From positions 62,001-126,000 of the forward strand of contig JADLDB010000179.1 in the NCBI GenBank assembly GCA_020846875.1: a DNA stretch of 64,000 nt, given 5' to 3'. The notes beneath the pieces are model-generated. The model saw only the letters and a list, made by a program, of their open reading frames with translations. It was not told the DNA's origin and ran no database searches. This document shows, in pieces, positions 3,097-30,682 of the stretch (positions are counted from its first letter, which is position 1; each line of letters begins with the position of its first letter). Made by a program: the position numbers and the translations under genes. This DNA comes from Myxococcales bacterium. GTDB taxonomy: Bacteria; Myxococcota; Myxococcia; Myxococcales; Myxococcaceae.

Positions 3097-5391
<2,295 letters not shown>

Positions 5392-5551
5392 GGTGGAGCC
5401 ACCGTGCTCCTGCCGCGCGCGCTCGTCGAGGAGAAAGCGCCCCTCGCCATCAGCGCAGGTGATGAGTGGGGTCCGCCTGCGACGCTCGGTGGCTGCCGTG
5501 ACGCGGGCTGGGCGTCGCCTCGAGCCGCAGTCGGTGGAACGTCGGCTCGCG

Positions 5552-6508
5552 TCAGGGCATCGCGGCGGGCCGAGCCTCGACCGAGGCTGGCCAGGAGACG
5601 TGGGTGAGTTCTTCCGAAGCGCCCCACAGGCGCCCCGCCACCTCCTCGTCCTTCGACGCCTTGTTGGAGTCCACCCGCTTCGGCCAGCCGAAAAACTCGA
5701 GGAGGCCGTCAGGCCCGTAGTACTCGCCGCCGCGCGCCTCGGGGCTGGTGGCCGCGTACAACTGTGGCAGCGCCCCCTGTTCGGGCGACATGCCCAGGAG
5801 CGCATTGCCCGCCTTCATCAGCCAGGCGCCGAGGCGCGAGCCGGTGAGGCGAGGCCCCACGCCCTGGAGGTTGGTGGCCGCGTAGCCCGGGTGCGCCGCC
5901 AGCGACAGCGTCTTGCAGCCAGAGGCGCGCAGCCGGCGCTCCAGCTCGTACGCGAAGAGGAGGTTGGCCAGCTTCGCCTGGCAGTAGGCGGCCCACGGGG
6001 CGTAGCGGCGCTCGCCCATCAAGTCGTCGAAGGCGACGCGGCCCCAGCGGTGGGCGTTGGAGGCGACGGTGACGACGCGCGGGGCCGGCGCCGCCTCCAG
6101 TGCGGGCAACAGCCGCAGCGTCAGCGCGAAGTGCCCCAGGTGGTTGGTGCCCAGTTGCGTCTCGAAGCCGTCCTTCGTCAGCGCGCGGGGCAGCGCCATG
6201 ACGCCGGCGTTGTTCACCAGCGCGTCGAGGCGCGGGTGCTGCGCACGGACTTCGGCGGCGAAGCGGGCCACCGACGCGAGCGAGGCGAGGTCCAGCGCGC
6301 GCACCTCCAGCCTCGCGGCGGGGACGGCCGCCTTCACCGTGGCCACCGCGGCCTCGGCCCGGCCCTCGTCGCGGCAGCCCATCACCACCGTGGCGCCCTT
6401 CGCCGCCAGCGCCTGCGTGGAGGCCAGCCCCAGCCCCGAGTTGGCGCCCGTCACCACCATCACCTTGCCGGTTTGGTCCGGCATTTCCGCTTCCGTCCAG
6501 CGCGCCAT
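5552..6508 (-). CDS. Short-chain dehydrogenase/reductase, retinol-dehydrogenase-like
   Basis: This 318-residue Rossmann-fold NAD(P)-dependent oxidoreductase has the cofactor motif TGANSGLG (about 20-27), an NNAG motif (LVNNAGVM), an active-site serine in VASNAH and the catalytic pair YCQAK. The overall pattern, including [16 protein letters not shown] and [13 protein letters not shown], resembles the WWOX/retinol-dehydrogenase-like branch of SDRs. The substrate cannot be told from sequence. The start is uncertain: Met at 6508 is used. An internal ATG before PDQTGK has a better GGAAGCGGAA site upstream, and another lies at 6523. It is divergent from the BrkB-like gene. Confidence 0.85.
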
Positions 6509-6597
6509 GGAGCGCCGACTCATGCGACGGGTGGCGCGGCGACGCAACAGAATCGCGCGCGGGCGACGCGTTTGGTGACAAGTTCTTCGGTTGGGAC

Positions 6598-7440
6598 ATG
6601 GAGCGCCAGGACGAGAGCGCGAAGGCGGTGCTGCGCCGGGTGGCGGGCCGCGTCTTCTTCGGCCCGGTGCTGGACTACGGCGCGCAGCTGGCCTTCTACG
6701 CGGTGCTGTCGCTGGTGCCCTTCCTGGTGGTGCTGACGTCGGTGGCGGCCTTCGTGCCCAGCGCGGACACGGTGCAGCGGTTGCTCGCGCGGGCGCAGAC
6801 GGTCATGCCCGAGGAGGCGTACCGGTTGGTGGCGCGGGTGGTGGGCGACGTGGTGGAGGGCCGCAGCGCCACCCTCTTCACCCTGGGCCTGTTCACCGCG
6901 CTGTGGAGCGCCTCCCGCGCGGCCAACGCCCTGCGCAAGGGCCTCAACGCCGCGCACGGGGTGGACGACGGGCGCTCCTGGGCGCGCAGGCAGGTGGTGG
7001 CCATCGCCTTCACGGTGGGTGGCGCGGCGCTGCTCGTCTCTTCGGTGAGCGCGACGCTGGTGGGCGGGCGCGCGGTGGAGGCGGTGGCTGGGGCGCTGGG
7101 CGTGGGCGTCGCGCAGGAGGTGCAGGCCTGGGGCCTGGTGCGCTGGCCGCTGGCGGTGCTGTCGGTGGGCGCGCTGGCGGCGCTCTGCTTCCGGGTGCTG
7201 CCGGACCTTCGCCCGAGGCCGCGGGCGGTGGCGTGGGGGGCGCTGGTGGCGACGGGGCTGTTCCTCGCCAGCGGGCTGGGCCTGTCCTTCTACACGCGGC
7301 ACTTCGCCCGCTACGGCCTCACCTACGGCTCGCTGGCGGGCGGCGTGGTGCTGCTGCTGTGGGCGTGGCTGTCGGCCATCGCCTTCCTGGTGGGCGGCGA
7401 GGTGACGGCGTGTTTCCCCGGCGCCCGGCCACGAAGGTGA
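6598..7440 (+). CDS. YihY/BrkB family inner-membrane protein
   Basis: This 280-residue integral membrane protein has about six hydrophobic segments: LAFYAVLSLVPFLVVLTSVA, LFTLGLFTALWSASRAANAL, IAFTVGGAALLVSSVSATLV, WPLAVLSVGALAALCF, AVAWGALVATGLFLASGLG and GVVLLLWAWLSAIAFLVGGE. The AFYAVLSLVPFL start, YGSLAGGVVLLLWAW and GGEV signature near the end are the hallmarks of the YihY/BrkB family (once mis-annotated as ribonuclease BN). Function in bacteria is poorly defined; envelope transport is assumed. It stands alone on the plus strand between minus-strand genes and ends 19 bp before the stop of the convergent small zinc-ribbon gene. Confidence 0.85.
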   Translation: MERQDESAKAVLRRVAGRVFFGPVLDYGAQLAFYAVLSLVPFLVVLTSVAAFVPSADTVQRLLARAQTVMPEEAYRLVARVVGDVVEGRSATLFTLGLFTALWSASRAANALRKGLNAAHGVDDGRSWARRQVVAIAFTVGGAALLVSSVSATLVGGRAVEAVAGALGVGVAQEVQAWGLVRWPLAVLSVGALAALCFRVLPDLRPRPRAVAWGALVATGLFLASGLGLSFYTRHFARYGLTYGSLAGGVVLLLWAWLSAIAFLVGGEVTACFPGARPRR

Positions 7441-7459
7441 GGCTGGGGCGGGACCGCGC

Positions 7460-7681
7460 TCAGACGCTCAGCGTCGGGTCATCGATGTCGAGGGGCCCCT
7501 GCGGCGGCCCAAGAGGGATGGCGCACTGGTCGCACATCCAGAAGCCAAGCAGCATGCCGTTCTCGCCGGTGGCGGTGTAGGTGGAGCCGGGCAGGTCGGG
7601 CGCCTCTTCCTTCTTGCAGACGAGACAGGCGACGGCGGCAGGGGCCTTCTTCTCGGGGGACTTCTTCTTCTTCGCGGCCAT
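7460..7681 (-). CDS. Small zinc-ribbon-like hypothetical protein
   Basis: This 73-residue protein has a Lys-rich start (MAAKKKKSPEKK) and two CxxC pairs, CLVC and CDQC, about 30 residues apart, which would suit a structural zinc site. The middle is neutral with GENGMLLGFWMCDQC; the acidic C-terminus is DIDDPTLSV. The gene begins 18 bp after the lytic transglycosylase-C39 gene on the same strand, with an AAGGAGA ribosome-binding site just after that gene's stop, so the two are probably co-transcribed. The function is not recognised. Confidence 0.65.
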   Translation of the reverse strand: MAAKKKKSPEKKAPAAVACLVCKKEEAPDLPGSTYTATGENGMLLGFWMCDQCAIPLGPPQGPLDIDDPTLSV

Positions 7682-7699
7682 GGGGCGTCAGTCTCCTTC

Positions 7700-9082
7700 T
7701 CAGCCCACCGAGATGCACCACCCGCCGTTGGGGTTGGAGCGGATGAAGTGGGCCATCTGCGCGGGGGTGATGGTGCGCACGTTCTGGTCCGCCGGGTCGC
7801 GCACGATGAAGTTGCCGCGCTCGTCGAGGCCGGCGACGGTGACGTAGTGGCCCGAGGTGCGGGCCTCGTTCTGGTGCGGCGGCATGGCGTGGTAGTCGCC
7901 GTTGGCCACCAGCAGCTTGCCGGCGCGCAGTTGCTCCTTCATCCACTCCACGTTGGGGCCGGGGCCCTTCACGGTGGCCTGCTTCCCGATGGCCCGCGCC
8001 ATGGCGACGATGCCGTTGACGGAGGTGCCGTTGCTGCCTGTGCCGCCGAACTTGCCCAGGTGGTTGATGAGCTGCGCGTCGGCCATGTTCCCGCCGTAGC
8101 CGAAGGCGCGCGCCACCATGGCCATCGAGGTGGGGCCGCAGTTGGCCGCGCCGTTCCAGTAGCCGCGCTCGGCGCCCACCGGCCGGTACTGGTTGATGTA
8201 CGGAACCTTGTAGTTGCCGACGGACGGCTTGTCGTCGTCCACCTGCTGCACGGGCGGCGGCTGCACCGACACCGGCGGCTTCTGCGAGGGCGTGAAGTGC
8301 GAGCCGCCGATGGCCGGCAGGCGGATGGTGTCGCCCGCGTAGATGAGGTTGGGGTTGGTGATCTTCGGGTTGAGGGCCTGAATCTGGTGAATGATGTCCC
8401 AGTGCGAGCCCTTCATCCCCTGGGCCTTCAAGCGGCTGGCGATGGCCCACAGCGTGTCGCCGCGCTGGATGTGGTAGCTCTCTCCGGCGGCCACGGCGCC
8501 TGACGGCGGCGCTGCCGGCTGCGTCCTCGGCGGCTGCTGCGACGGCGTGGACGGGCCAGAGGGCGGCACCTCGGCGCCCGGCGGCGTGCGGCCTCCCGGG
8601 AAGAGCCTGGCGATGTGCGCGCGGATGAGCGACTCGTAGTGCCGGCCGCGGGAGTCATTCATCGCCCCCGGCCCCCGGTGCCACGCGCGCGCCGCGGCGA
8701 AGGCGCTGCCGTACTGGCGGCTCATCTCGCCCAGCTTCTTCGCCAGGTACTCAATCTGCTTCTCCGGCGGGATGGTGGCGGCGCTGGAGCCGCGGCCCAC
8801 GCGCGTGCCGCTCCAGCGCTCGAAGTCGGGGAGCAGCCCGTTGTCGTCGAGGCCGATGAGGCCGTGCCCGGTGCCGTCGCGGTGCACCTGGAAGTTCTTG
8901 AAGCCGGACTCCTGCATGAGGATGCCCGCCATCACGTGCGGATCCGCCCCGTACTGCCGCGCGTACTGCTCGATGTACGGCCAGCACTGCTCGAAGGACA
9001 GCTGGGCGTTGCGGGCCTGGTTGAGCGGCGCGGCGACGCGGGACGAGACCTGCTGCTGGCGGACCGGCGAGATGGAAGTCAT
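7700..9082 (-). CDS. Fusion of lytic transglycosylase, LysM and C39-like cysteine peptidase
   Basis: This 460-residue protein has three recognisable parts. Residues ~30-160 resemble an SLT lysozyme-like domain: YGADPHVMAGILMQESGF with Glu58 as the likely acid, then GHGLIGLDD. After a Pro-rich linker, residues ~200-260 form a LysM peptidoglycan-binding module (YHIQRGDTLWAIAS, ending GDTIRLPAI). Residues ~300-460 form a papain-like C39-type domain with Cys in NCGPTSMAM (~313), His in GHYVTVAGLD (~411) and Asp in IVRDPAD. It would cut glycan strands and probably peptides at the cell wall. No signal peptide is visible, so export would need another route. The first Met is used. Confidence 0.85.
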   Translation of the reverse strand: MTSISPVRQQQVSSRVAAPLNQARNAQLSFEQCWPYIEQYARQYGADPHVMAGILMQESGFKNFQVHRDGTGHGLIGLDDNGLLPDFERWSGTRVGRGSSAATIPPEKQIEYLAKKLGEMSRQYGSAFAAARAWHRGPGAMNDSRGRHYESLIRAHIARLFPGGRTPPGAEVPPSGPSTPSQQPPRTQPAAPPSGAVAAGESYHIQRGDTLWAIASRLKAQGMKGSHWDIIHQIQALNPKITNPNLIYAGDTIRLPAIGGSHFTPSQKPPVSVQPPPVQQVDDDKPSVGNYKVPYINQYRPVGAERGYWNGAANCGPTSMAMVARAFGYGGNMADAQLINHLGKFGGTGSNGTSVNGIVAMARAIGKQATVKGPGPNVEWMKEQLRAGKLLVANGDYHAMPPHQNEARTSGHYVTVAGLDERGNFIVRDPADQNVRTITPAQMAHFIRSNPNGGWCISVG

Positions 9083-9238
9083 ACGGGGATTGTCCGGAGG
9101 AGGAAGGAGACGTTTCGGCCCGGTGGATCAGCGGCTTACGGGACAGGCACCGGGGGAAAAGCGGAGCGAAATTCGGACGGACTGTCCAGCGCGTTGACAA
9201 GGCGTGTCTGCCCGGGTCCGTGGCGGAGCTGCCGGGCC

Positions 9239-10060
9239 TCAAGGGGAAAGAAAGGCTGTCACCTCGTCCAGCACGCGCGGGCACTGGGAATCGAGCACCA
9301 CGAGGTGGTCCGAGTCCTCGAGCTCGACCAGGCGCTTCTCGCCGCGCAGGCCGTCGTGCAGTCGTCGGGCCCCCGACGGGTCCACCACCGTGTCCTTCGC
9401 GCCCTGAAGGAGCAGCGTCGGGGCGGTGACACGCCCCACGTCGGTGAGGACGTGCCGGGCCAGCACCTTCGCGCTGCGCGCCGCGTCCAGGTTCATCGTC
9501 TGAAAGGGCAATACCGCGCTCACCTCGGCGCGGCGGCGTGCGTCGCGCAGCGGGGGAGGACGCCTCGGCACCTGAGAGAGCCACGCGAAGCCGTCCAACA
9601 GCGCCTCAGGCCGCCACGGCAGGAGCGCCGGCTTGAAGATGTCCACGAAGGGCGCCAGCAACACGAGGCGGCCGGTGAGAGGACGCAACTCGGCCACGCG
9701 CAGCGCCACCATCGCTCCGGTGGAGAAGCCGATGAGGTGCACCACGGGCAGGCCGGCGTGGCTCGAGCTGCCGCCTCCCGCGACAGGGGGGGCTCGGCCT
9801 CCGGAGGCCTCCTGCGCGAGCGCGTCGACCTCGGCGTCCACCGCCGCCACCCAGTCCTCGTGGCGCGAGGCGGGCATCCACCGCGACGGCGCCGTGTGTC
9901 CCGGAAGGTGCAGCGCGCGCACGGTGAAGCCGAGCCGCGCGTGCAGCGCCTCGCCCAGCCACTGCAGCTCATAGGTGCCGCCGCCCAGGCCGTGCACCAG
10001 CAGCACCGACGCACCGCGACCCGGCAGCGTGAAGCACTCGTTCCCCAGCGGCCGACTCAT
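9239..10060 (-). CDS. Alpha/beta hydrolase (carboxylesterase/monoacylglycerol-lipase-like)
   Basis: This 273-residue alpha/beta-hydrolase fold protein has an oxyanion-hole motif HGLGGGTYE (23-31) and a nucleophile elbow GFSTG with Ser113. The acid is Asp223 in LQGAKDTVVD and the catalytic His is His252 in EDSDHLVVLD. The triad is therefore complete. The pattern HGLGG plus SDH resembles Est30-type carboxylesterases and lysophospholipases. No signal peptide is seen, so it is probably cytoplasmic. It stands between the peptidase fusion and the metallophosphoesterase, all on the minus strand, with gaps too wide to insist on an operon. Confidence 0.85.
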   Translation of the reverse strand: MSRPLGNECFTLPGRGASVLLVHGLGGGTYELQWLGEALHARLGFTVRALHLPGHTAPSRWMPASRHEDWVAAVDAEVDALAQEASGGRAPPVAGGGSSSHAGLPVVHLIGFSTGAMVALRVAELRPLTGRLVLLAPFVDIFKPALLPWRPEALLDGFAWLSQVPRRPPPLRDARRRAEVSAVLPFQTMNLDAARSAKVLARHVLTDVGRVTAPTLLLQGAKDTVVDPSGARRLHDGLRGEKRLVELEDSDHLVVLDSQCPRVLDEVTAFLSP

Positions 10061-10115
10061 CGACGGGCCTTACCTCTCCGGACGTCCTCGACTCGCTTCC
10101 GCGGGGTGCTGGGCC

Positions 10116-10655
10116 TCATCCCGGCAGCCACGTCTTTCCCGTCTCCGCGTCCACGTGCGACAGGGCCACGCCTCCGCGGGTCACCTCCATCACCCCGAAG
10201 AGGATGGGCAACTGGAAGCGCCGCGGCCCGAGGCTGCCCGGGTTGAAGAGGGTGAGCCCCTGCTCCTGGGTGAGGAAGGGCACATGCGAGTGGCCGCAGA
10301 CGATGAGCCTCGCGCCGGCCGCGCGCGCCCGCTTCGCCGCGTCCGCCCGGATGCGCGGGCCCGCCACCGCGATGTGGGTGAGCAGCAGCGTGAAGGCCGG
10401 CCTCCCCGCCTCGGTGAGGGTGAGCTCCAGCACGTCGGGCAGGTCCTTCGCCCTCACGTCGATGTTCCCCCGCACCGCGTGCACCGGCGCGATGGCCGCC
10501 AGCGTGTCCAGCACCGACAGGTCGCCGATGTCGCCGCCGTGGAGGATGACGTCGGGCTTCTCCTGCGCGAGGTGCGAAAGCCCCTGCCCGTCGGGCTTCG
10601 AGTGGGTGTCCGCCACCAGGCCCAGCCGCAGGCCTCCGTCGGCGCGCAGCGGCAC
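10116..10655 (-). CDS. YfcE/MJ0936-type metallophosphoesterase
   Basis: This calcineurin-like phosphodiesterase carries all metal-binding blocks of the YfcE group: LVADTHSK, ILHGGDIGD, VRGNID, LLTHIAV and VCGHSHVPF, ending with FNPGSLGPRR. The expected product is a two-metal phosphodiesterase of about 170-180 residues. The start is not certain: the GTG before PLRADGGLRLGLVADTH is used because the family begins with the first metal strand. The frame stays open 15 codons further upstream. The gene is divergent from the membrane kinase gene. Confidence 0.85.
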   Translation of the reverse strand: MPLRADGGLRLGLVADTHSKPDGQGLSHLAQEKPDVILHGGDIGDLSVLDTLAAIAPVHAVRGNIDVRAKDLPDVLELTLTEAGRPAFTLLLTHIAVAGPRIRADAAKRARAAGARLIVCGHSHVPFLTQEQGLTLFNPGSLGPRRFQLPILFGVMEVTRGGVALSHVDAETGKTWLPG

Positions 10656-15938: not shown

Positions 15939-18242
15939 TCACTGCACGTCGCACACCAGGTCCAACCCCGGCGTCGAGCCGCACCGCGTGGTCAGCACCG
16001 TCGACGAGGTGATGGTGATGCGCGTCTGCGACTGGCCCGTCCCGTTGGGAATCTGAAAGGGCGCGGAGGTGACGGTGGCGGTCGCTGGGTCGGTGCCGCT
16101 CAAGATGAGGTTGGGGAGCTGCTGGTTCCACGTCTGGTACGAGTCCCCCAGGCCGCTCGCCGGCACCGGCCCGCAGCCCGAGTTGCAGGTGACGTTGCCG
16201 AAGGCGTTGTAGCCGGTGGCGCAGCCCGGCCCCATCGCGGTGCGCGCGGTGACGAAGTTCCAGCTGTTCATCCCGTTGGGCGGCGGCGCGCAGGAGCCCC
16301 AGGTGATGGTGGTGGTGCCCAGCGTGCCGGTGGCGTTGGAGGCGCAGCTGCGCGTCAGCGTCGCCGCGTGGTTGGTGCAGGCCGCGTCGCCGCCGCCGCA
16401 GTTGGACAGGCCGGGCGTCATCAACCCCACGCTGTGGTCGACGTTGGCGGTGAGGTTGGCGCCCATCGTCTGGTTGAACTCCAGGGGGAAGTAGAACTCC
16501 ACCAGGCGCACCGGCCCGGGGCCCGGATTGCCCATGCCGTCGTTGGTGTAGCGCAGGCGCAAGAAGCCGTTGGTGAAGGGGGCGCCTCCTGACGGCGGCG
16601 GCCGGCTGAAGGGCGTGGAGTCGCCCATGCCCGCGAAGGCGGGCGTCGTCGCGTTGTCGCCCAGGTTGGTGAAGGTTTGGTTGCCCAGGTTCAAGAAGGT
16701 GCCGGTGATGGCGAACTGCCCGCGCACCCGGTACACCACGTCGGTGTAGGTACCGCAGGTGCCGACGCAGGTGGGCGCCATGCTCCAGGCCCCCGACGCG
16801 CCGCAGGTGGGGTTGGGGCCCACGCGCCCGAAGCCGGAGTTGCAGGTGTAGCTGGCGGTGGCGCCGAAGGTGGTGGTGGCCGCGCCGCCCGCGCCGCCGC
16901 TGACGGTGGGCGTGCCCGCGTTCGCCACCACCGGCGGCGTGCCGCAGTCCACCGGCGCGCAGGTGGGCGCGGCGCCGGAGAAGGTGCCGTTGGCCTGACA
17001 GGTGCGCGTCGCGGGGCCCGTGAGGCTGTAGCCCGGGTTGCAGGCATAGGTGACGGCGTTGCCGAAGGTGGCCGTGGCGGACGACACCGAGCCATTCGCG
17101 GGGGCGGTGGCCCCGCTGCACGTCACCGGCACGTCGCAGTTGGTGCCGGACCAGCCCAGGTCGCAGGTGCCGCAGCTGTAGCCCCCCCCCATCGGGGTGC
17201 AGCCTGCGCTGTGGACACACGGGTTGGGGGTGCAGCCGGACGCCATGGTGCAGGTGGGCGCGGCGCCGCTCCAGGTGCCGTCGGCCTGGCAGGTACGCGT
17301 CGCGGCGCCGGTGAGGAAGAAGCCGCCGCTGCAGGAGTAGGTGGCGGTGTCGCCGGTGACGCCCATGGTGCGGCTGACGGCGCCGTTGGCCGGCGCGGTG
17401 AGGTTGGGCGCGCAGGGGTTGGGCGCGCAGGTGGGCGCGGTGCCCGAGAAGGTGGCGTCGGCCTGGCAGGTGCGGGTGGCGGCGCCGCTCAGCGTGTAGC
17501 CCGCGTCGCAGGCGTAGGTGACGTCCAGGCCGAAGGTGGCGCTGCCGGCGGACACCGTGCCGTTGGCGGGAGCCACCGCGCCGGTGCAGGTGATGGCGGT
17601 GTCGCAGTTCATCCCCGTCCAGCCCAGCTCGCAGGTACCGCAACGGTAGTCCGTCGCGCCCACCGGGGTGCAGCCCGAGGAGTGGACGCAGGGGTTGGGC
17701 GTGCAGCCGGTGCCCACGGCGTCGCAGGTGGGGGCGGCGCCGCTCCAGGTGCCGTCGGCCTGGCAGGTGCGCGTCAGCGCGCCGCTGAGGGTGTAGCCCG
17801 TGCCGCAGGCGTAGGTGGCGACGTCGCCGTAGACGCCGGCCGTCCGGTCCACGGTGCCGTTGGCCGGCGCGGTGAGGTCCGGGCTGCACGGCACCGGCAC
17901 GCAGGAGGGAGTCGCGCCGCTCCAGGTGCCGCTCGCCTGGCAAGTGCGGGTGGCGGCGCCCTGCAAGGTGAAACCCGTCGCGCAGGTGTACGTCACCGTC
18001 GTCCCGACGCCGCCCTGGCCCGCGGGCGAGACGCTGCCATGCAGAAGCACGTCGGGCGCGCAGAGGACGGCCGCGCACTTCGCGCCGTCGCCCGTGAAGC
18101 CGGTGTTGCACACGCAGGCCTCGCTGATGCACGAGGCGTTGACGTCACAGCCGCCGGCGCAGGTGGACGACGGACTCGAGCCACAGCCAGAGAAGGAGAC
18201 GACGAGGGCCGCGGCGAGCGCGGGCAGCCAACGAGACGACAT
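15939..18242 (-). CDS. Lipoprotein with EGF-like and six Sushi (CCP)-like modules
   Basis: This 767-residue lipoprotein has Cys20 in VVSFSGCG. The Cys-rich body is built of repeats. A short EGF-like unit (CDVNASCISEACVC) is followed by six complement-control-like modules of about 55 residues, each with a core like YxCxxGYxLxGxxTRTCQ and ending APTC. Two EGF-like spacers are interleaved (CTPNPCVHSSGC..CGTCELGWTGMNC). The last ~220 residues form a separate Cys-containing beta-rich domain. Such modules act in protein-protein or cell-cell contact in animals; a surface adhesion role is inferred. The ATG follows a GGAGG site by six bases, and a strong hairpin with a T-run lies just upstream. Confidence 0.85.
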   Translation of the reverse strand: MSSRWLPALAAALVVSFSGCGSSPSSTCAGGCDVNASCISEACVCNTGFTGDGAKCAAVLCAPDVLLHGSVSPAGQGGVGTTVTYTCATGFTLQGAATRTCQASGTWSGATPSCVPVPCSPDLTAPANGTVDRTAGVYGDVATYACGTGYTLSGALTRTCQADGTWSGAAPTCDAVGTGCTPNPCVHSSGCTPVGATDYRCGTCELGWTGMNCDTAITCTGAVAPANGTVSAGSATFGLDVTYACDAGYTLSGAATRTCQADATFSGTAPTCAPNPCAPNLTAPANGAVSRTMGVTGDTATYSCSGGFFLTGAATRTCQADGTWSGAAPTCTMASGCTPNPCVHSAGCTPMGGGYSCGTCDLGWSGTNCDVPVTCSGATAPANGSVSSATATFGNAVTYACNPGYSLTGPATRTCQANGTFSGAAPTCAPVDCGTPPVVANAGTPTVSGGAGGAATTTFGATASYTCNSGFGRVGPNPTCGASGAWSMAPTCVGTCGTYTDVVYRVRGQFAITGTFLNLGNQTFTNLGDNATTPAFAGMGDSTPFSRPPPSGGAPFTNGFLRLRYTNDGMGNPGPGPVRLVEFYFPLEFNQTMGANLTANVDHSVGLMTPGLSNCGGGDAACTNHAATLTRSCASNATGTLGTTTITWGSCAPPPNGMNSWNFVTARTAMGPGCATGYNAFGNVTCNSGCGPVPASGLGDSYQTWNQQLPNLILSGTDPATATVTSAPFQIPNGTGQSQTRITITSSTVLTTRCGSTPGLDLVCDVQ

Positions 18243-18250
18243 GCAACCTC

Positions 18251-18275
18251 CGAAAAAGGTACGGCAGCGTACCTT
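18251..18275 (-). terminator. Hairpin with T-run just upstream of the Sushi lipoprotein start
   Basis: On the minus strand AAGGTACG, loop CTGC and CGTACCTT form a perfect 8 bp stem followed directly by TTTTTCG, a textbook intrinsic-terminator shape and rare in DNA this GC-rich. It lies between the frameshifted small gene and the Sushi lipoprotein gene, ending about 10 bases before the latter's GGAGG site. It could end transcription of the upstream gene, or act as an attenuator or operator for the lipoprotein gene. Confidence 0.6.
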
Positions 18276-18418
18276 CAGCCCCACGGGGCCTCTGCACCAT
18301 TTCGATGACAGACGTCAGCCATCTCCGGAAGGGACGGCCCCTTACCGGTTGACGCTCACCTTCACGCAGGTGACGGGCGTCTTGGGGCGGTCGGCGTCGT
18401 CCTCTCGGGCGGGTGAGG

Positions 18419-18756: not shown

Positions 18757-18843
18757 GTGGACTCCAGGGGACGGCGAGGTGGGCGACCCTTACCACGGCC
18801 GCGGCGCGAGGGCGGTGTGGCTCTTCGCGCCCTCGCGCGACGT

Positions 18844-21800
18844 TCAGCCCCCCTCACTATGAACCTCTTCCCCGATGGGGGAAGGAGAGGAACGGGGCTC
18901 GAGCAGCTTCGGGTTGGCGGCGAGGTGACCGGCCAGGGCGAGGAGCAGCTCCGCCTCGTGCGCGTCGGTGAGGTGGTGAAGCGCGCGGTTGACGGCTCCG
19001 TACACGGCCGCCACCAGCGTGAAGAGGCGCTCCGGCCGGCTGCGGTACTCCACCAGCGCCCGCCGCACCGCCTCGTCGTCGGGGTCGAGCAGCGCCAGCT
19101 TGCGCTTCGCGTCGTAGCGCAGCGGCGTCTTCCCGCCGGCGCGCGAGAGGCGCACGTCGTCCAGTTCGTCCGGTGTCAGGCGTCCCAGCGCCCCGGCCCG
19201 CAGCAGCCGCACCTCGCGCCGCAGCCGCTCGAGGCCCGCCCACTCCGGCGTGTCCTTCGGGGGGTCCGCCTCGGCCCGGCGCGCGCGCCACTCGGACAGG
19301 TCCTCGATGCGCTCCACCTGTCCGTCACCCAGCGCGCGGGCCAGCGCCTCCAGCCAGGGCTCGTAGAGCGCGTCCGCCTCCAGCACGAAGGCCTCGCCCA
19401 CGTCGGGCGCGAGCAGCCGGCGCTTGAGCACCGCCACCTTCCCGCGCCTCAGCACCTCGTCGGCCACGGCGCGCAGGGACACCGCCCGCCCCTCGACGGT
19501 GTGGAAGAGGGGTGCCCGGGAGAGGGACGCGGCCACGCCGGTGAGGCGATCCAGGTGGGCGGCGCTCTTCACGCCCTGCTCCCGCAGGAACTCCAGCGCC
19601 CGCTGCCGGGCCACGCCGCGGTGCGCCGGGGGCAACGCGCCCGCCTGCTTCGCCAACTCACCGAAGACGGACTCCAGCGCCTGCCGAATGGCCGTCACCT
19701 GCGCCGGGGTGGGGCGCGCCTCCGTCCACTCGGCGTTGACGGGCAGGCCCTCCACGTCCAGCAGCGCGGCCACCGAGGACGGCCCGCCCACCTCCACCGC
19801 GCCCACCTCCACGCCCTCGCGCGCCAGCCGCACTTCCCATGCCCCCTCGGCCAGCGGCAAGGCCACCTGTCCCTTGAGCCCCGGCGCCTGCACGTCCACC
19901 CGCAGCAGCGCCTGGCCCGCCCACGTCAGGGAAGCCAGCCGCCGCGCTCGACGCGAGGCCTCCAGCGCCTGCGCGCGCGTGAGGTCCTCCGTCACGTCCT
20001 CGGAGGTGAGGCCCGCCGCCAGGAGCGCCTCCAGGTTGTCGCGCGAGGCGGCCAGCACCAGGGCGCCCGCCGGCGGCTTCCCCGTCGCGGCCACCGCCAC
20101 CCGCCGGCTGCGGGAGTGCTCCGCCAACACCTCGCCCAGCGTGGCCGGCGCCCCGTCGAGGCGCGCGAAGAGGGGCAGCCCCGGCAGCGCCGCGGCCACA
20201 GGCCCCACGTCGCGCCTCCACCGCAGCGCCGCCAGCGCCCAGGGCCGCCAGCCTGCGCTGCCCAGCCCCCGGGTGAGGCGCCGGGCCAGCAGCACCTCCA
20301 GCGCCCGGTCCACCTCGGCCAGCACGTCGCGGAAGGCCTGGTTGCGCACCGCCTTCGTCCAGTCGGCGTTGGGCCGCAGCGCGTCGCAGTTGATTTCCGC
20401 CAGGCCGCCCACGGGATGGTCCGCCCAGTAGTGCTCGAGGGGCGTCATCTCGTGCAGCAACTGCACGTCCAGCCGGCCGAGCGGCTCGTCGGACAGCACC
20501 ACCTCGCCCTGCACCGCGCCTCCGGCGACGGCTTCCCTCCAGGGGCTGTCAGACGCGACGCGCAGGCCTTCCTGCTTGCGACGCCCGCGCACCGTGTCCG
20601 CGTGCTCCAGCTGTGGCGTCACGTCCACCAGGGGCAGGGACAGCGCCCTGGCCAGCGCCAACTCCCCCTCGCGCGGGCGCCACACCTTCGTCCCCTCGTC
20701 GAGCAGCGCGCCCTTCCGTTCGGCGTACGGCACCCGTGCCTTCTTCTTCGCCTTCTTGCCCGAGGAGGCCGGCAGCAGGTCAGCCAGGGAGAGCGGCGTG
20801 CCCGCCGTCGTCTCCAGCAAGGCGCACCTCGCCAGCCGGTGCTGCTTCTTCCGGCCCGCCACCCAGAAGAGGAGCGCCACCGCCTCGGCCTGGGCGTGCC
20901 ACCGCGCCTCGACGTCCAGGCTGTCCCAGCGCGCCGCCACCTCGTCGGCCAGCTCCTCTCCCACCCGCAGCACCTCGGAGACGAGCGCGTCGTACACCGC
21001 GTCCTGCACCACGCCGCCGTGCCCGGCCTGCGGCGTGAGGAGCTCGCAGTTGACGGCCGCGGCCAGGGGCGAGGGCAGCGCGCCCTGGAGCGCGCAGAGG
21101 GGTTTCCTCTCGGTGAACAGCTCGAGTCTCCCCTGGAGGCCGGCGGAGAGGACGACTTCTCCCGAGAGGGAGGCCGTCGCCAGCTTGCGGCGCCAGGCAA
21201 AGCTCCCCGGAAGGCTCACCTCCTCGACGGCGGCCAGCTTCGCCCGGCGGGCCCTCGCCTCCACCTCGGCGCGCAGCGCAGAGGCCACGTTGCGCACCGC
21301 GCGGAAGCGCACCAGCGCGGCGCGCACGTCGGAGTCCGAGGCCGCCACCACCGGCGTCTGGTCGGGCAGCGCGCCCTTGACGTCTTCGTCGGTGAAGCAC
21401 ACGGCGTCCCGCGCCTCGAGGATGTCCACGGAGGCCCACCCGCCGTCACTCAAGGGCCAGCCCGCCCAGGCGCGCAGGCGCGAGGCCAGGGCTTCGGGCG
21501 CGCCCACCTCCCCGCGGCTGGCCAGGGCGAGGAAGAGGACGCGGCGGAAGTCGGGCTCGGCGGCGCGCCGGAGCGCCTCGTCCAGCAGCGCGCACTCCGC
21601 CGCCAGCAGGGCCTCGCCCAGGCGGGTGCGCACCTCGGCCGGGAGAAAGGTGGCGCCGGGCTCGACGCCGTCGACGTGCGCGAAGGCCACCGACGGCAGC
21701 CGCGACGGCAGCGTCTCCACCAGCAACTGTCGGCCCTCCACCAGCACCTCCACGCGGCAGGTGCGGGAGGTGCCCTGGACGCCGTAGTGGAGCCGCACGC

Positions 21801-24399
21801 CTTCGGCCGCCCCCGGCGCCTGCGGCTCGGCCCCCGCGGGCAGCCGCCCGTCGTGCACGGGGCGGGCGAGGAAGCGCCGGCGGGCTTCGAAGCGATTCAA
21901 GTCCGGCTCCGCGTCCTCCGCCTTGAGGCCGGTGAGGTGAGAGAGCAGCTCCGCGCCCTGACCGTCCGCCAGCACCACCAGCAGGTTCGCCGGCACGCGC
22001 GCGAGGCCCTGTCCCAGCACCCGCAGGTGGCCTGCCGCCGCCACCTCTCGGCGCAGTTGCTCCACGGTGCACGCGCCGGCGGAGGTGGCAAAGCGCAGGG
22101 CCACCTCCACCGCCCGGCCCGCACCGGAGGTGGCCGGCGAGGCGGACAGCGCGTCCTTCGCCCAGCGCGCGAGGTAGTCCCGGCCGGCAGGAGGCACCGC
22201 ACTCCAGTCACCGAAGCGCTGCACCACCGCCTGGGCCAGCGCGCCTTCTTGCGCCCGCACCACCGCCACCACCCGCGTGAAGGCCCCGTCCCGCACCGCC
22301 TTTTCCCAGCGCTCGTCGGGCTTCAACTCCGGGCAGTCCGCCGCGGCGCGCAACTGCGGCAGGGTGGACGGCACCAGCGCCCCGTCGAGGCGGAAGCCGT
22401 CGCGGTACAGGGCGATGAGGCGCTGCGGGCCGGACGGCGCCGCGAGGCCCACCTCCCCCGTCACGCTCCCCTCTGAGAAGGGCACCACCACCAGGCACCC
22501 GTCCAGGCGCGCCTTCTCCTTCTCGCGGAGGCGCCGGCGCACCTCGCGCTCGTGCAGGAGCCGCCCCGCGACGTCCTCCAGGGGCGCGGGGCCCAGGGCC
22601 TTGAGGAGCGCGTGCTCGTCCTGCGACAACTGCAGCACCGGCTCGCCGCTCAGCAGGGGCCAGGTGAAGGACTCGGTGACGTAGCGCCACGGTCGCACCT
22701 TCTCCAGGCGCTCCAGTGACAGGCGCTCCTCTCCCCCCACGGTGCGGAAGAGGGGCGCGCGCCGGAGCGCCGCCGGCAGCTCGCGCTTCTTCTCCCGTCC
22801 CAGGCGCACCAGCAAGTCCCTCGCGTGGGCCAGCACCCCCTCGGACAGCGGCCCCTTCCCGGACACCTCGCGGAGGATGGCGTCCTCCGCCGCCTCGGCC
22901 ACCGCGCGGGTGACGAAGCTGAACAGCTTCTTGCTGGGCACGTCCTGCCAGGACTGCTTCGGCAGCTCCTTCTTCAGGTTGACGACGGCGCGCAGGCGAA
23001 GGGGCGCCAGCGACGGCACGTCGCCCTGCTGCAGGAAGCGGCCCGCGCACAGCAGCCGCACGAAGGCGCCCCAGGCGCGGTGGTGCAGCGCCACCTCGCC
23101 GTCCACCTGCGGCGTGTCCAGCCTCACCCGCGCGAAGACGTCTTCGTCCGGGGCCAGGGCCGCCTCCTCCTGCGGCTCAGCCAGCCAGGCCTTGCGATTC
23201 TCCGCCGCGCGCCGGTTGCGCTGCACCTGCTCGGCCACGTCCACCTGCCGGGCCTCGGGCAGCAGCTTCGTCCACGCCTGCGGGTGCAGCACGGTGGGCC
23301 GCGGGTAGCTGCCTTCGGGGTAGAGGGAGTGCGCCACGTGCAGCGGCCTGCCGGCCTTCACCTCGGCCTTCACCTCCGCCACCGAGAAGCGCTCCCCTGA
23401 GGGGCCGGGGAGGACGGGCGCCTCCTCGAGAATGGCGCGGGCCTCCTGCGACGTCTCCTCGGACAGCAGGCGGGCCACGAAGTCCTCGCGCAGGGCGTCG
23501 TCGGGTACGTCCTTGAGGCGCTGCACCTGCCGGGACAGGGCGTCGAGCGACAGTTGCTCCAGGGCGGCCCGCGCGGCCTTGAGGCCCTCGTCGCTGTCCA
23601 CCACGTCGCTGCCCGAGGCGTTGGTGCGGAAGCCGTCGCCGCGGAGCCACGCCTGCAGTTGGAGCCCCGGAAGAATGGTGAAGCGCGTCGCCACCGCCAC
23701 CCCCAGCACGTCCAGCGTCAGCTCGGTGACGTCGGGCTGCGCCTCGGGCACCACCGCCGTCACCTCGACGCCGGCCGCCGTGCGCTGCTGGCGCTGGCCA
23801 GGGGTGGCCTCCTCCAGCCAACGGGGTGGGGCCACCTTCCGGCCGTTGAGCTGCAGCGTCCCGTCGAAGCGCCCGCACCTGGCGCGAATCGCCGCCGCCT
23901 CGGGCGCGCCCCGCAGCACCGCCGCCGCCACCCGCCAGCCGAGGGCCTTGCGCAGCGCCAGGTGCGTGCCGGTGCGCTTGGGACAGGGCGCCACCTCCAC
24001 CTCGCCGCCGGCCAGCAGGGTGACGCGCAGCTCGTCGCTCTCCACCACCAGGCGCTTCGCAGGCACGCCCAGCGCGCCGGCCACCCCCAGGCCCAACAGC
24101 CGCGCCCGCCGCGTCTCGGGGGTGACGCCGGCCACCAGCCCCTGGGACAGGAGGTCCTTCATCACCTCCGCCGGGAAGGGCCGGCCGTCGAACGTCACCT
24201 CCACGTCGTCGGCGTCGGTGCGCACGTCCAGCCGCTTCGCGCCGGACAGCGCGGCGGCGCGCAGCACCTCCAGCACCCAGTGCGAGGGCTCCGCGAAGCG
24301 GTGGTCCTTGAGGCGCTCCAGCGCGCGCTTGCCGTCGATGCGGAAGCGCCCTTCAGCCACCTTCTCGGCGGCGCCGCGCAGCTCGTGCTCGAGGCTCAT
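18844..24399 (-). CDS. Giant repeat protein with degenerate HSP90/GHKL-like N-terminus
   Basis: This 1851-residue protein has no signal peptide or membrane segment. Residues ~35-150 follow the layout of a GHKL/HSP90 ATPase domain: a helix SHWVLEVLRAAALSGAKRLDV, a strand with DVEVTFDGRPF, LLGLGVAGALGV and RTGTHLALRKAL. The Asn and Asp of the N-box are Ala48 and Leu51, so ATP turnover is unlikely. From about residue 430 to 1700 six similar modules recur every ~214 residues. Each starts with a GEV-L strand and then xxLxPxxxWxxAVxxxAF; several are preceded by an APLFxTxxGxxxSL unit. It lies 122 bp after the HSP90-like ATPase gene. The start is the ATG with GGAGG upstream; an in-frame GTG 12 codons earlier is possible. 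Confidence 0.8.
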   Translation of the reverse strand: MSLEHELRGAAEKVAEGRFRIDGKRALERLKDHRFAEPSHWVLEVLRAAALSGAKRLDVRTDADDVEVTFDGRPFPAEVMKDLLSQGLVAGVTPETRRARLLGLGVAGALGVPAKRLVVESDELRVTLLAGGEVEVAPCPKRTGTHLALRKALGWRVAAAVLRGAPEAAAIRARCGRFDGTLQLNGRKVAPPRWLEEATPGQRQQRTAAGVEVTAVVPEAQPDVTELTLDVLGVAVATRFTILPGLQLQAWLRGDGFRTNASGSDVVDSDEGLKAARAALEQLSLDALSRQVQRLKDVPDDALREDFVARLLSEETSQEARAILEEAPVLPGPSGERFSVAEVKAEVKAGRPLHVAHSLYPEGSYPRPTVLHPQAWTKLLPEARQVDVAEQVQRNRRAAENRKAWLAEPQEEAALAPDEDVFARVRLDTPQVDGEVALHHRAWGAFVRLLCAGRFLQQGDVPSLAPLRLRAVVNLKKELPKQSWQDVPSKKLFSFVTRAVAEAAEDAILREVSGKGPLSEGVLAHARDLLVRLGREKKRELPAALRRAPLFRTVGGEERLSLERLEKVRPWRYVTESFTWPLLSGEPVLQLSQDEHALLKALGPAPLEDVAGRLLHEREVRRRLREKEKARLDGCLVVVPFSEGSVTGEVGLAAPSGPQRLIALYRDGFRLDGALVPSTLPQLRAAADCPELKPDERWEKAVRDGAFTRVVAVVRAQEGALAQAVVQRFGDWSAVPPAGRDYLARWAKDALSASPATSGAGRAVEVALRFATSAGACTVEQLRREVAAAGHLRVLGQGLARVPANLLVVLADGQGAELLSHLTGLKAEDAEPDLNRFEARRRFLARPVHDGRLPAGAEPQAPGAAEGVRLHYGVQGTSRTCRVEVLVEGRQLLVETLPSRLPSVAFAHVDGVEPGATFLPAEVRTRLGEALLAAECALLDEALRRAAEPDFRRVLFLALASRGEVGAPEALASRLRAWAGWPLSDGGWASVDILEARDAVCFTDEDVKGALPDQTPVVAASDSDVRAALVRFRAVRNVASALRAEVEARARRAKLAAVEEVSLPGSFAWRRKLATASLSGEVVLSAGLQGRLELFTERKPLCALQGALPSPLAAAVNCELLTPQAGHGGVVQDAVYDALVSEVLRVGEELADEVAARWDSLDVEARWHAQAEAVALLFWVAGRKKQHRLARCALLETTAGTPLSLADLLPASSGKKAKKKARVPYAERKGALLDEGTKVWRPREGELALARALSLPLVDVTPQLEHADTVRGRRKQEGLRVASDSPWREAVAGGAVQGEVVLSDEPLGRLDVQLLHEMTPLEHYWADHPVGGLAEINCDALRPNADWTKAVRNQAFRDVLAEVDRALEVLLARRLTRGLGSAGWRPWALAALRWRRDVGPVAAALPGLPLFARLDGAPATLGEVLAEHSRSRRVAVAATGKPPAGALVLAASRDNLEALLAAGLTSEDVTEDLTRAQALEASRRARRLASLTWAGQALLRVDVQAPGLKGQVALPLAEGAWEVRLAREGVEVGAVEVGGPSSVAALLDVEGLPVNAEWTEARPTPAQVTAIRQALESVFGELAKQAGALPPAHRGVARQRALEFLREQGVKSAAHLDRLTGVAASLSRAPLFHTVEGRAVSLRAVADEVLRRGKVAVLKRRLLAPDVGEAFVLEADALYEPWLEALARALGDGQVERIEDLSEWRARRAEADPPKDTPEWAGLERLRREVRLLRAGALGRLTPDELDDVRLSRAGGKTPLRYDAKRKLALLDPDDEAVRRALVEYRSRPERLFTLVAAVYGAVNRALHHLTDAHEAELLLALAGHLAANPKLLEPRSSPSPIGEEVHSEGG

Positions 24400-24521
24400 C
24401 GGCCGCGCCCTCCCCGTGGCCGGCGAAGGTACCACCTCCCGGGCGCCAGCCGACGTTGGTCGTCAGGGGCTTGCGGCGCTTCGAGGCCGGCGGGCTGCGC
24501 TTGCCGTCAGCAACGGGGAGC

Positions 24522-26087
24522 TCAGCGCAGGGCCCTCGTGGTGAGGGCGCGGTCCACCTCCTCGGTGAGGCCCCCGCCGGCCACCAGCACGCAGCGCGCC
24601 AGCAGCAGCGACGCCAGGCGGGGCGCGGAGTGGAACAGCGCCGCGGCGGCGGCCACCTCCGCGTGCCGGGCGTTGAGGCACAGCAGCGGCGGGCCCTTCG
24701 CGAAGACCGACGCCCGGGCCACCCCGGCGCGCACCGGCACGCCCGGAGTCTCCACCCGCGCCCAGCGCTCCTCGGCCAGCGCGCCGAAGAGCCGCGCCAC
24801 CAGCACCCCGCGCGTCGCCGCCCCGCCCAGGCGCAAGGCCTCGCCCAGGGCCTCGAGGAAGACGGCGGGGGCGGCGCTGCCCGGCGGTTCGGCGAAGGTG
24901 AAGACGTCGTCGGCGAGGACGACGGACTTCGCCGAGAAGGCGAGCGCCAGCGCGTTGGCCAGGGCTTCGCCTGGGGTGGCCTCCAGCACCAGGACGCCGG
25001 CGGACGAGAGGCGCTGCGTCACCGCCGTGGCGGAGGGAGAGACGAGGAGGGCGCTTTCCTTCGCCACCACCCGGGCCACGTCCTTGAAAGGCGCCGCGCC
25101 CCCGCCGGCCAGCCGGTACCACAGGCGGGAGGCGTCCGCTTCGGCGCGTGCGTAGTGAAAGAGGAGCTGCCAGTCGGCGGCGCCGTCGGGGCGGAGCGCG
25201 GCCTTGCGGCTCTCCTCGGGCAGCGCCTGCTTCAAGGGGCCCTGCACCAGCACGGCGGCGAGGCCCTGCACCTTGGCGAAGTGCCTGTCCCGCCGCACGT
25301 TGTCGCGGGTGAGGGTGTGCTCCAGGTAGCGGCTCACCACCCGCACCGTCACGCGGGGCACCAGCGGCTCCTGCGTCTCCAGCAGGGTGAGGCCCCGGTT
25401 GTAGAAGCCCGTCCACGGGGGCTCGGTGCGGGCGGGCCCGGCGACGACGTGCGTGCCTTCCTCCCGGTGCTCCACCTGGAAGGGCGCGTCCACCGACACC
25501 TCTTCACGCACTGGCGAGGGTGAAGGCGCGGCGCTGCCGTCGGCGGGGCCCGCGGTGAAGGCCACGTCTGCCTCGGAGTAGCGGCACCACTTCTTCACCG
25601 CGGCGAGGCTCTGGCGGACGAAGTCGTCGTACTCCGCGGCGGTGGCGTGCTTGTGGAGGGTGACGCGGGTGCCTTCCAGCGGCTCGGGAGAGGCGAGCAA
25701 TTCCCAGCTTCGGTCCTGCTTGAAGAGGACGCGCCAGGACTCGCCGTCGCGGCCGGTGTCCACCACCACCGCGTCGGGCCGGCAGGCGAAGACGCTGACG
25801 AAGCCGATGCCGAACTTCCCAATCTTGGTGAGGTCGTTTTCCTTGGTGCTGCGGAACTTCGTCACCAGGTAGTTCTCGATGAGGTTCCGGTTCATCCCTT
25901 CGCCCCAGTCGGCGACGGCCGCGGTGAGCAGGCCCCTGTCCTTCCCGGGGCGAAACGCCAGCGCCACCTCGATGCGCGAGGAGCCCGCGTCGATGCTGTT
26001 CTGAATCAGCTCCCGGTAGAAGGCGAAGGGGTCCGTGAACTGGTGGACGAGGTCTTCGACGACGTCCTCGGCCTGGGGCGCGCTCAT
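24522..26087 (-). CDS. HSP90-like GHKL ATPase
   Basis: This 521-residue cytoplasmic protein has a complete ATP-binding Bergerat fold: N-box FYRELIQNSIDAGSSRIEV (Glu26, Asn30, Asp33), G1 box VADWGEGM (60-65), the lid region FRSTKENDLTKIGKFGIGF (G2, Gly90-Gly95) and a GTRVTL motif near 155. The segment VVSRYLEHTLTRDNVRRDRHF after residue 260 resembles the middle region of HSP90 proteins. At 521 residues it is shorter than HtpG (about 620). The rest (~320-521) is helical and Ala/Leu-rich without known motifs. It precedes the giant repeat protein on the same strand, so the two probably work together. The ATG before SAPQAEDVV is chosen; the open frame upstream is Arg/Pro-rich. Confidence 0.85.
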   Translation of the reverse strand: MSAPQAEDVVEDLVHQFTDPFAFYRELIQNSIDAGSSRIEVALAFRPGKDRGLLTAAVADWGEGMNRNLIENYLVTKFRSTKENDLTKIGKFGIGFVSVFACRPDAVVVDTGRDGESWRVLFKQDRSWELLASPEPLEGTRVTLHKHATAAEYDDFVRQSLAAVKKWCRYSEADVAFTAGPADGSAAPSPSPVREEVSVDAPFQVEHREEGTHVVAGPARTEPPWTGFYNRGLTLLETQEPLVPRVTVRVVSRYLEHTLTRDNVRRDRHFAKVQGLAAVLVQGPLKQALPEESRKAALRPDGAADWQLLFHYARAEADASRLWYRLAGGGAAPFKDVARVVAKESALLVSPSATAVTQRLSSAGVLVLEATPGEALANALALAFSAKSVVLADDVFTFAEPPGSAAPAVFLEALGEALRLGGAATRGVLVARLFGALAEERWARVETPGVPVRAGVARASVFAKGPPLLCLNARHAEVAAAAALFHSAPRLASLLLARCVLVAGGGLTEEVDRALTTRALR

Positions 26088-29566: not shown

Positions 29567-30682
29567 TCAGCGAGCGCGCACGAGGCAGCCAGGCGCGACG
29601 ACTTTCACCTGGGCTTCGAGGCCGGGCGTGCAGATGAGGCGGCGCTCCCGGAAGGCGCGGACGCCGCGGCGGAGCAGCGGCTCAGGAAGCACCGGGGGGT
29701 GGCCCCAGAGGTCCACGCACCTCGCGGCGCGGACCGACTCACCGGCGCGCTCCAGCACCAGGCTCAGCACCCCGCCGCCCGGCCCCAGAGCGCCGCCCAG
29801 CGCGTCCGCAAGCGAGAGGACGGAAGAGGCGCCACCAACCGCGCCGGGCTGCTGCAAAGCCCTGCCGCGCGCTGCTGCCTGCGCCGGCTGCGCGGGTGGC
29901 GGAGGGGAGGAGCCAGGGGGGCGACCTGGCGGCGCGGCGGCCTGGTCCTCCGCCGGCCCACGCGGCAGCCGAGGCACTGCCGACGAGACGAACGGCCCCA
30001 GCACGCCGCGCTCCACCTCATGCACGGTGACGCCGGCCGCGCGCTCGAGGGCCGGCCACGCGGCGGACAACGCTGCGTTCGCCGCCACGTCGGCCAGCGC
30101 GCGGGCGAGCGGCTCGGGCACCGTCGCCTGGTCCTGCCGGTCGAGGGGCAGCGGCCGATTCCCCGCCTGCGTCAACTGCACGGTGAGCCGCAGCCACAGC
30201 CCGTCGGGCCGGGTGGCGTCGTGCGCCAGGAGGAGCCGGAGGCGCCTGCCTTCGCGCCCCATCAGCCGCGCGCTGGTGCGGCTCACCGGAGGCAGCTCGG
30301 TGGCCGCCAGCGCCACGTGGTAGCTGGAGGACGCGCGGGTGGCCTTCGCCCGGTGCGAGGCGAGGAAGGCGCGCACCGCCTGCTGGTGCGCCAGAAGCCG
30401 GGCCAGCAGGCGCCCCACCGGCAGCCCCGACGCGCGGTGCACCTCCACCGCCGGAGGGCCCGCGCGGGGCCGGGCGCGGCCGAGGAAGGCCAGCAGGTCC
30501 AGCACCGGCCGGGGCGGAAGGAAGAGCGCCCCCGGGCGCGCCACGGTGACCAGCGCCGCGAGCTGCGCGAGGTACGGCCCCGCCTCCTCGGGGCTCAGCT
30601 TCACGACTGGCTGCGGACTCGCCACGGTCAGCGGCGCAGTCTGCCGTCTCGCCTCGCCGGGCGGGAGACGTTTCACCTGCAC
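29567..30682 (-). CDS. Hypothetical protein, Ala/Arg/Leu-rich
   Basis: This frame encodes 371 residues starting from a GTG. It has consistent high-GC codon use and a well-ordered middle (for example PVSRTSARLMGREGRRLRLL, LTVQLTQAGNRPLPLDRQDQ), then a Pro/Gln-rich linker near residues 245-285. It ends CTPGLEAQVKVVAPGCLVRA. No signal peptide, membrane segment or known motif is seen. The start overlaps nothing; cysE begins 30 bases away on the other strand, so the two are divergent. An inner GTG (before ASPQPVVKLS) is an alternative start. The family is not recognised. Confidence 0.5.
   Translation of the reverse strand: MQVKRLPPGEARRQTAPLTVASPQPVVKLSPEEAGPYLAQLAALVTVARPGALFLPPRPVLDLLAFLGRARPRAGPPAVEVHRASGLPVGRLLARLLAHQQAVRAFLASHRAKATRASSSYHVALAATELPPVSRTSARLMGREGRRLRLLLAHDATRPDGLWLRLTVQLTQAGNRPLPLDRQDQATVPEPLARALADVAANAALSAAWPALERAAGVTVHEVERGVLGPFVSSAVPRLPRGPAEDQAAAPPGRPPGSSPPPPAQPAQAAARGRALQQPGAVGGASSVLSLADALGGALGPGGGVLSLVLERAGESVRAARCVDLWGHPPVLPEPLLRRGVRAFRERRLICTPGLEAQVKVVAPGCLVRAR

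Follow-up and report, generated by a model that had tools for sequence, protein, structure and literature searches.

A stretch of 64,000 nucleotides from a Myxococcales bacterium (assembly GCA_020846875.1, contig JADLDB010000179.1, positions 62,001 to 126,000; the whole stretch is called the window below) carries two neighbouring genes, one encoding an Hsp90-like GHKL ATPase, the other a giant protein. Together with a third gene, designated C, the pair looks like an undescribed ATP-driven machine of the chaperone type. We put at about one half the probability that it forms a two-chain Hsp90-type machine, in which an active ATPase, made of N-terminal and middle (N-M) domains, works with a giant having a dead ATP site and an array of middle domains. 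At the same even odds, this would be a new class of Hsp90: an obligate hetero-oligomer of a catalytic N-M subunit, a pseudo-ATPase giant with extra middle domains, in a number depending on the lineage, and C as dedicated partner. No published description of the ATPase-giant pair was found in literature searches of open-access papers.

Both open reading frames (ORFs), which lie on the minus strand with 122 bp between them, were confirmed as read in the initial annotation. Both are real genes, as their third-position GC of 0.95 and homologues at 37-58% identity show; plus-strand ORFs that overlap them (for instance 18757-22476) were ruled out as shadows by codon GC. As already suspected, the giant belongs to no named family: neither Pfam, NCBIfam nor PADLOC gave a match, even at E≤5. 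No second copy of it was found in its own genome.

The small chain is predicted to be a catalytically competent Hsp90-like N-M ATPase, its ATP site being assigned by motif conservation, and its N and middle domains by profile only. Its residues 26-109 match HATPase_c_3 in Pfam (39 bits), and phmmer matches it to the Hsp90 N domain. The motifs on which the initial annotation had based an intact HSP90-type ATPase (Asn30, Asp33, DWGEG and GKFGIGF) are all present. Positions E26, N30, D33, D60, G62, G64, G90, G93, G95, T140 and R261 are invariant in the 78 rows of the ATPase alignment (78/78), and the GHKL ATP site, with its Glu, Asn, Asp and Gly-rich loop, is complete in all of them. The profile of the sacsin GHKL domain (SACS, PF25794) gives 30.4 bits with the ATPase of the window, just below the Pfam cut-off of 32.8, and 38.8 bits, above that cut-off, with its relative at locus L064. 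The HSP90 family profile, PF00183, matches neither the ATPase nor the giant.

According to an AlphaFold2 model, the giant opens with a complete Hsp90-like N-M module, the ATP site of which is dead: the Asn is found in 0 of 38 giants, mostly replaced by Ala, and the Asp in none of the 38 either. With deep profiles, residues 8-357 of the ATPase align with residues 25-363 of the giant (P 5.8×10−20, column-shuffled controls reaching 0.04 at best). Direct profile comparison of shallow alignments (A2 and A3) was not significant, significance being obtained with the deeper ones. A giant profile made without any ATPase still recovers ATPase ORFs, at 20-64 bits. The model covers residues 1-1090, that is the N-M module and repeats 1-3 (see below), with a mean pLDDT (predicted local distance difference test) of 89.6 and a pTM (predicted template modelling score) of 0.47, which together suggest well folded domains. 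All 50 Foldseek hits listed for this model are Hsp90s (TRAP1, E 2.8×10−17). VIA aligns residues 6-391 with Hsp90 family members (TRAP1, Hsp90 and HtpG) over their N and middle domains, with a Z of 16-19 and a root mean square deviation (rmsd) of ∼5-7, the best alignment (Hsp90/TRAP1) having Z 19.3 over 349 residues and rmsd 6.0. As the rmsd is large and the identity 12-17%, this likeness is a statement at the level of the fold. At that level, and by the profile comparison, the dead copy of the ATPase fold proposed earlier is borne out, Foldseek and VIA both leading to Hsp90/TRAP1.

Behind this module, comparison of the giant with itself revealed a period of ∼215 residues (P down to 3×10−19), and a hidden Markov model (HMM) of the repeat delimited six units over residues 428-1720, in agreement with the six large repeats announced from the sequence. 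The repeat profile is related to the middle domain of the giant itself (P 7.5×10−14) and to the middle region of the ATPase (P 1.2×10−7), and the modelled repeats have the strand-helix order of the middle domain. On these two grounds, profile and order in the model, the six repeats are assigned as middle-domain-like units. Related giants, 806-1910 residues long, contain 2 to 8 matched stretches of the repeat type, some of them partial and some corresponding to the N-terminal middle domain. A conserved region ends the protein, and a 36-column piece of it resembles the C-terminus of the ATPase (hhalign P 2.1×10−5, against 0.55 or worse in column-shuffled controls). An Hsp90 C-terminal dimerisation domain was not recognised by sequence, the C-terminus being outside the model; the two chains share this weak C-terminal piece. 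Coordinates are collected in Table 1.

Table 1. Features of the ATPase, the giant and gene C in the window (all on the minus strand).
Feature	Residues	Window coordinates	Strand	Basis
Active Hsp90-like GHKL ATPase, upstream gene of the pair	521 aa	24522..26087	(-)	
Predicted GHKL ATP-binding (Bergerat) domain of ATPase	15-150	25638..26045	(-)	HATPase_c_3, Hsp90 N domain, motif residues
Middle-domain-like region of ATPase, putative catalytic Arg261	205-386	24930..25475	(-)	Repeat profile P 1.2×10−7; R261 invariant
Giant partner	1851 aa	18844..24399	(-)	No Pfam, NCBIfam or PADLOC match
Dead GHKL (Hsp90 N-like) domain of giant	1-175	23875..24399	(-)	ATP-site Asn and Asp replaced
Hsp90 middle-like domain of giant	202-419	23143..23796	(-)	VIA alignment of model residues 6-391; repeat profile P 7.5×10−14
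Repeat 1	428-633	22501..23118	(-)	Self-comparison and repeat HMM
Repeat 2	642-860	21820..22476	(-)	Self-comparison and repeat HMM
Repeat 3	876-1071	21187..21774	(-)	Self-comparison and repeat HMM
Repeat 4	1074-1289	20533..21180	(-)	Self-comparison and repeat HMM
Repeat 5	1291-1500	19900..20529	(-)	Self-comparison and repeat HMM
Repeat 6	1503-1720	19240..19893	(-)	Self-comparison and repeat HMM
Conserved C-terminal region of giant	1721-1851	18844..19239	(-)	Homologue alignment
Gene C, third component (start codon uncertain)	up to 371 aa	29567..30682	(-)	No Pfam match

The two genes travel together. Among 60 close relatives, the giant and an ATPase of more than 50% identity are side by side in exactly the same 8. 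The ATPase alignment was then scanned over 84,980 species genomes, yielding 174 relatives, and the best 80 of these 174 loci were examined; they belong to Myxococcota, Elusimicrobiota, Candidatus Eremiobacterota, and to two metagenome-assembled genomes (MAGs), an Oligoflexia and a Lujinxingiaceae. Cultured genera with the pair are Nannocystis, Polyangium, Enhygromyxa and Plesiocystis. With coordinates based on alignments, the giant was placed directly downstream of the ATPase in 67 of the 80 loci, upstream in 4, in a single ORF with it in 1, and was not seen in 8. Since 4 of these 8 stop at a contig end, 76 loci are testable, and the giant is kept beside the ATPase in 72 of them; adjacency thus holds across Myxococcota and other phyla, and the ATPase is not regularly found alone (4 loci of 76). 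In many pairs the two genes overlap by 4 bp. The single ORF, of 1919 residues (L076), may be an assembly frameshift instead of a true fusion. Two giants follow each other in L092, and three giant-type ORFs stand in tandem upstream of one ATPase in L090 (1651-9001). In L083 (3574-5589), a lone ATPase is followed by a DEAD/Lhr-like helicase gene, which overlaps it shortly and occupies the place of the giant. Within Myxococcota the pair is patchy (16 of 195 genomes), with several copies in some MAGs.

Gene C is recognised in the window by its family profile (29600-30613, E 4×10−43), and between it and the ATPase lie two genes of the same strand, one for an aldehyde dehydrogenase and one of MarR/TPR type. 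The family comprises proteins of ∼290-350 residues, and a protein of ∼290 residues adjoins the ATPase in four close homologous loci. C is present in all 16 pair-bearing Myxococcota genomes, against 1 of the 179 others (P 1.5×10−22 in a Fisher test, which ignores the kinship of the genomes). The initial annotation had reported neither co-factor nor restriction genes next to the pair. No restriction set was found among the common families of 94 neighbour genes; the remark on co-factors missed C. None of 24 C members has a Pfam match. The model of a C relative is confident (pLDDT 93), and its fold gave no Foldseek match at E≤0.001. A T-fold enzyme was considered and set aside, the top VIA rows having Z 5-6, too low to count as a relationship. 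As neither the giant nor C has any Pfam family, the system represents unannotated biology. The gene order in Elusimicrobiota, Eremiobacterota and part of the Myxococcota is a coiled-coil protein (D), C, an AAA ATPase, the Hsp90-like ATPase, then the giant where present. The genome of the window yielded neither D nor the AAA protein, in a search that had no positive control. Three Eremiobacterota loci (L064, L066 and L069, about 5167-10581) have D, C, the AAA ATPase and the Hsp90-like ATPase, no giant, then MreB-type genes.

The gene adjoining the giant on its other side (15939-18284, minus strand), which is not part of the pair, encodes six Sushi/CCP domains (PF00084, E 3.5×10−60), a module usually linked to animal complement regulators.

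Because an intact and a universally dead N-M module are encoded together, we propose an asymmetric Hsp90-type clamp, only one side of which would burn ATP while the other bears the working surface. Most likely, the two N-M modules would pair as an asymmetric heterodimer or a higher oligomer. On binding ATP, the N domain of the small chain would shut against the dead one of the giant, and the middle-domain arginine R261 would assist hydrolysis. The cycle may then move the giant's long middle-domain array. Since the middle domain ranks among the main regions through which Hsp90 touches its clients, the six units suggest an extended arm that would hold clients or serve as a scaffold. C would be a partner that the machine always needs, acting perhaps as co-chaperone or as adaptor for clients; some lineages add the AAA ATPase and the coiled-coil protein.

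Several points weigh against this proposal. The C-terminal piece shared by the two chains, which might mediate their pairing, is weak (P 2.1×10−5 over 36 columns). At 4 of the 76 testable loci, three from Eremiobacterota and one myxococcal, there is an ATPase with no giant nearby, so that the ATPase probably also accepts partners other than a giant. The distances among ATPases and among giants co-vary with a Mantel r of 0.84, a correlation expected from shared descent alone, and kinship likewise tempers the co-occurrence of C. Finally, at a pTM of 0.47 the placement of the domains within the giant is not fixed by the model, which stops before repeats 4-6, and the ATPase was assigned by profile, not by a model.

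Replacement of the canonical Hsp90 of bacteria, HtpG, was also considered. PF00183 is absent from the genome of the window, which is rated 100% complete. HtpG is found in 85 of the 195 Myxococcota genomes, 4 of the 16 with the pair versus 81 of the 179 without (P 0.19), so mutual exclusion is not supported, and with four genomes having both, the pair is not simply a substitute for HtpG. This coexistence would also suit a client-specific assembly factor instead of a general chaperone, where the same clamp has a narrow client, for example as the scaffold of one large envelope or motility complex. The restricted, patchy spread and the tight link to a single partner, C, argue in the same direction; however, no constant client gene accompanies the operon except C, D and the AAA gene, the other neighbours being diverse. 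We regard this alternative as improbable, although it fares better than the following ones.

Less probable again is an anti-phage or biological-conflict system resembling the GHKL-containing Tiamat (TmtA), in which the ATPase would sense infection while the giant and C execute the response. The PADLOC TmtA profile matches the ATPase weakly, and only in its GHKL part (E 4×10−8); the patchy presence, the multiple copies in some MAGs, and the AAA ATPase and coiled-coil protein associated in some lineages are what such a system could display. However, the giant has no PADLOC match, and a Pfam search of the giant and of C gave no effector domain, be it a nuclease, HEPN, a toxin or any other. Among the 94 neighbour genes, the PADLOC profiles that recur are mostly those of generic kinases, with no further enrichment in defence genes. 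Plasmids gave no match to the ATPase or the giant, and phage contigs a single weak one, to the ATPase only; a mobile-element origin was rejected on this basis. We conclude that phage defence is not supported by the neighbours or by the mobile-element searches.

Least probable of the three is a MORC/MutL-like clamp whose GHKL-S5 pair would encircle DNA instead of proteins and serve genome maintenance: VIA lists the MORC2 ATPase as one structural match to the giant (Z 15.8-15.9), MutL profiles match the ATPase weakly and one lone ATPase precedes a DEAD/Lhr-type helicase, but Hsp90s score equally or higher and align over the N domain and all of the middle domain, up to residue 391, where MORC2 stops at about residue 317, and Pfam finds no DNA-binding domain or nuclease.

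Compared with known systems, the two-chain machine proposed here is closest to Hsp90 (HtpG, TRAP1 and cytosolic Hsp90). Both chains have an N-terminal GHKL ATPase domain, dead in the giant, and a middle domain, the ATPase has the position of the catalytic Arg in its middle domain, and residues 6-391 of the giant superpose on an Hsp90 N-M. However, the Hsp90s described so far pair two copies of the same chain, and HtpG, the bacterial one, is one protein of modest size. Here two different chains are present, one with a dead site, together with six extra middle-like units and the co-occurring gene C, with no PF00183 match and no C-terminal dimerisation domain recognised by sequence. Tiamat, a single gene, likewise encodes a large bacterial protein with a GHKL domain, and its PADLOC profile matches the ATPase weakly; it differs in that TmtA matches are lacking for the giant, no match covers TmtA over its full length, and no defence context was found. 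Prokaryotic MORCs also have a GHKL and S5 module, and sit with restriction genes (PMC2292703), whereas in our case the fold match spans the whole Hsp90 middle domain and the giant has repeats.

Sacsin, to which the layout had initially been likened as if split over two genes, resembles Hsp90 in its N and middle parts (PMC9880540), and its single chain unites DnaJ and HEPN domains with three ATPase modules of the Hsp90-like kind (PMC3710099). The GHKL N domain of the ATPase, which scores just under the sacsin cut-off and is followed by an Hsp90-middle-like part, and the size of the giant sustain this comparison. The likeness is nevertheless a loose one: every sacsin unit (SIRPT/SRR repeats) contains its own N domain, whereas the giant has a single dead N domain, absent from each of its repeats, only the middle domain being repeated and the active chain being separate. 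Moreover, Pfam finds no DnaJ or HEPN domain in the full giant of the window or in 37 relatives, of which the N-terminal parts were searched, and no ubiquitin domain here either. The pair would work like an Hsp90, but since it neither matches the HSP90 family profile nor follows the sacsin repeat plan, we file it under neither name. If our proposal is true, it describes an Hsp90 grown by repeating its client-binding domain, and illustrates a way to divide the Hsp90 cycle among subunits and to enlarge the client-binding surface. The pair would then also make giant Hsp90-like proteins, sacsin among them, approachable through a tractable relative in bacteria.

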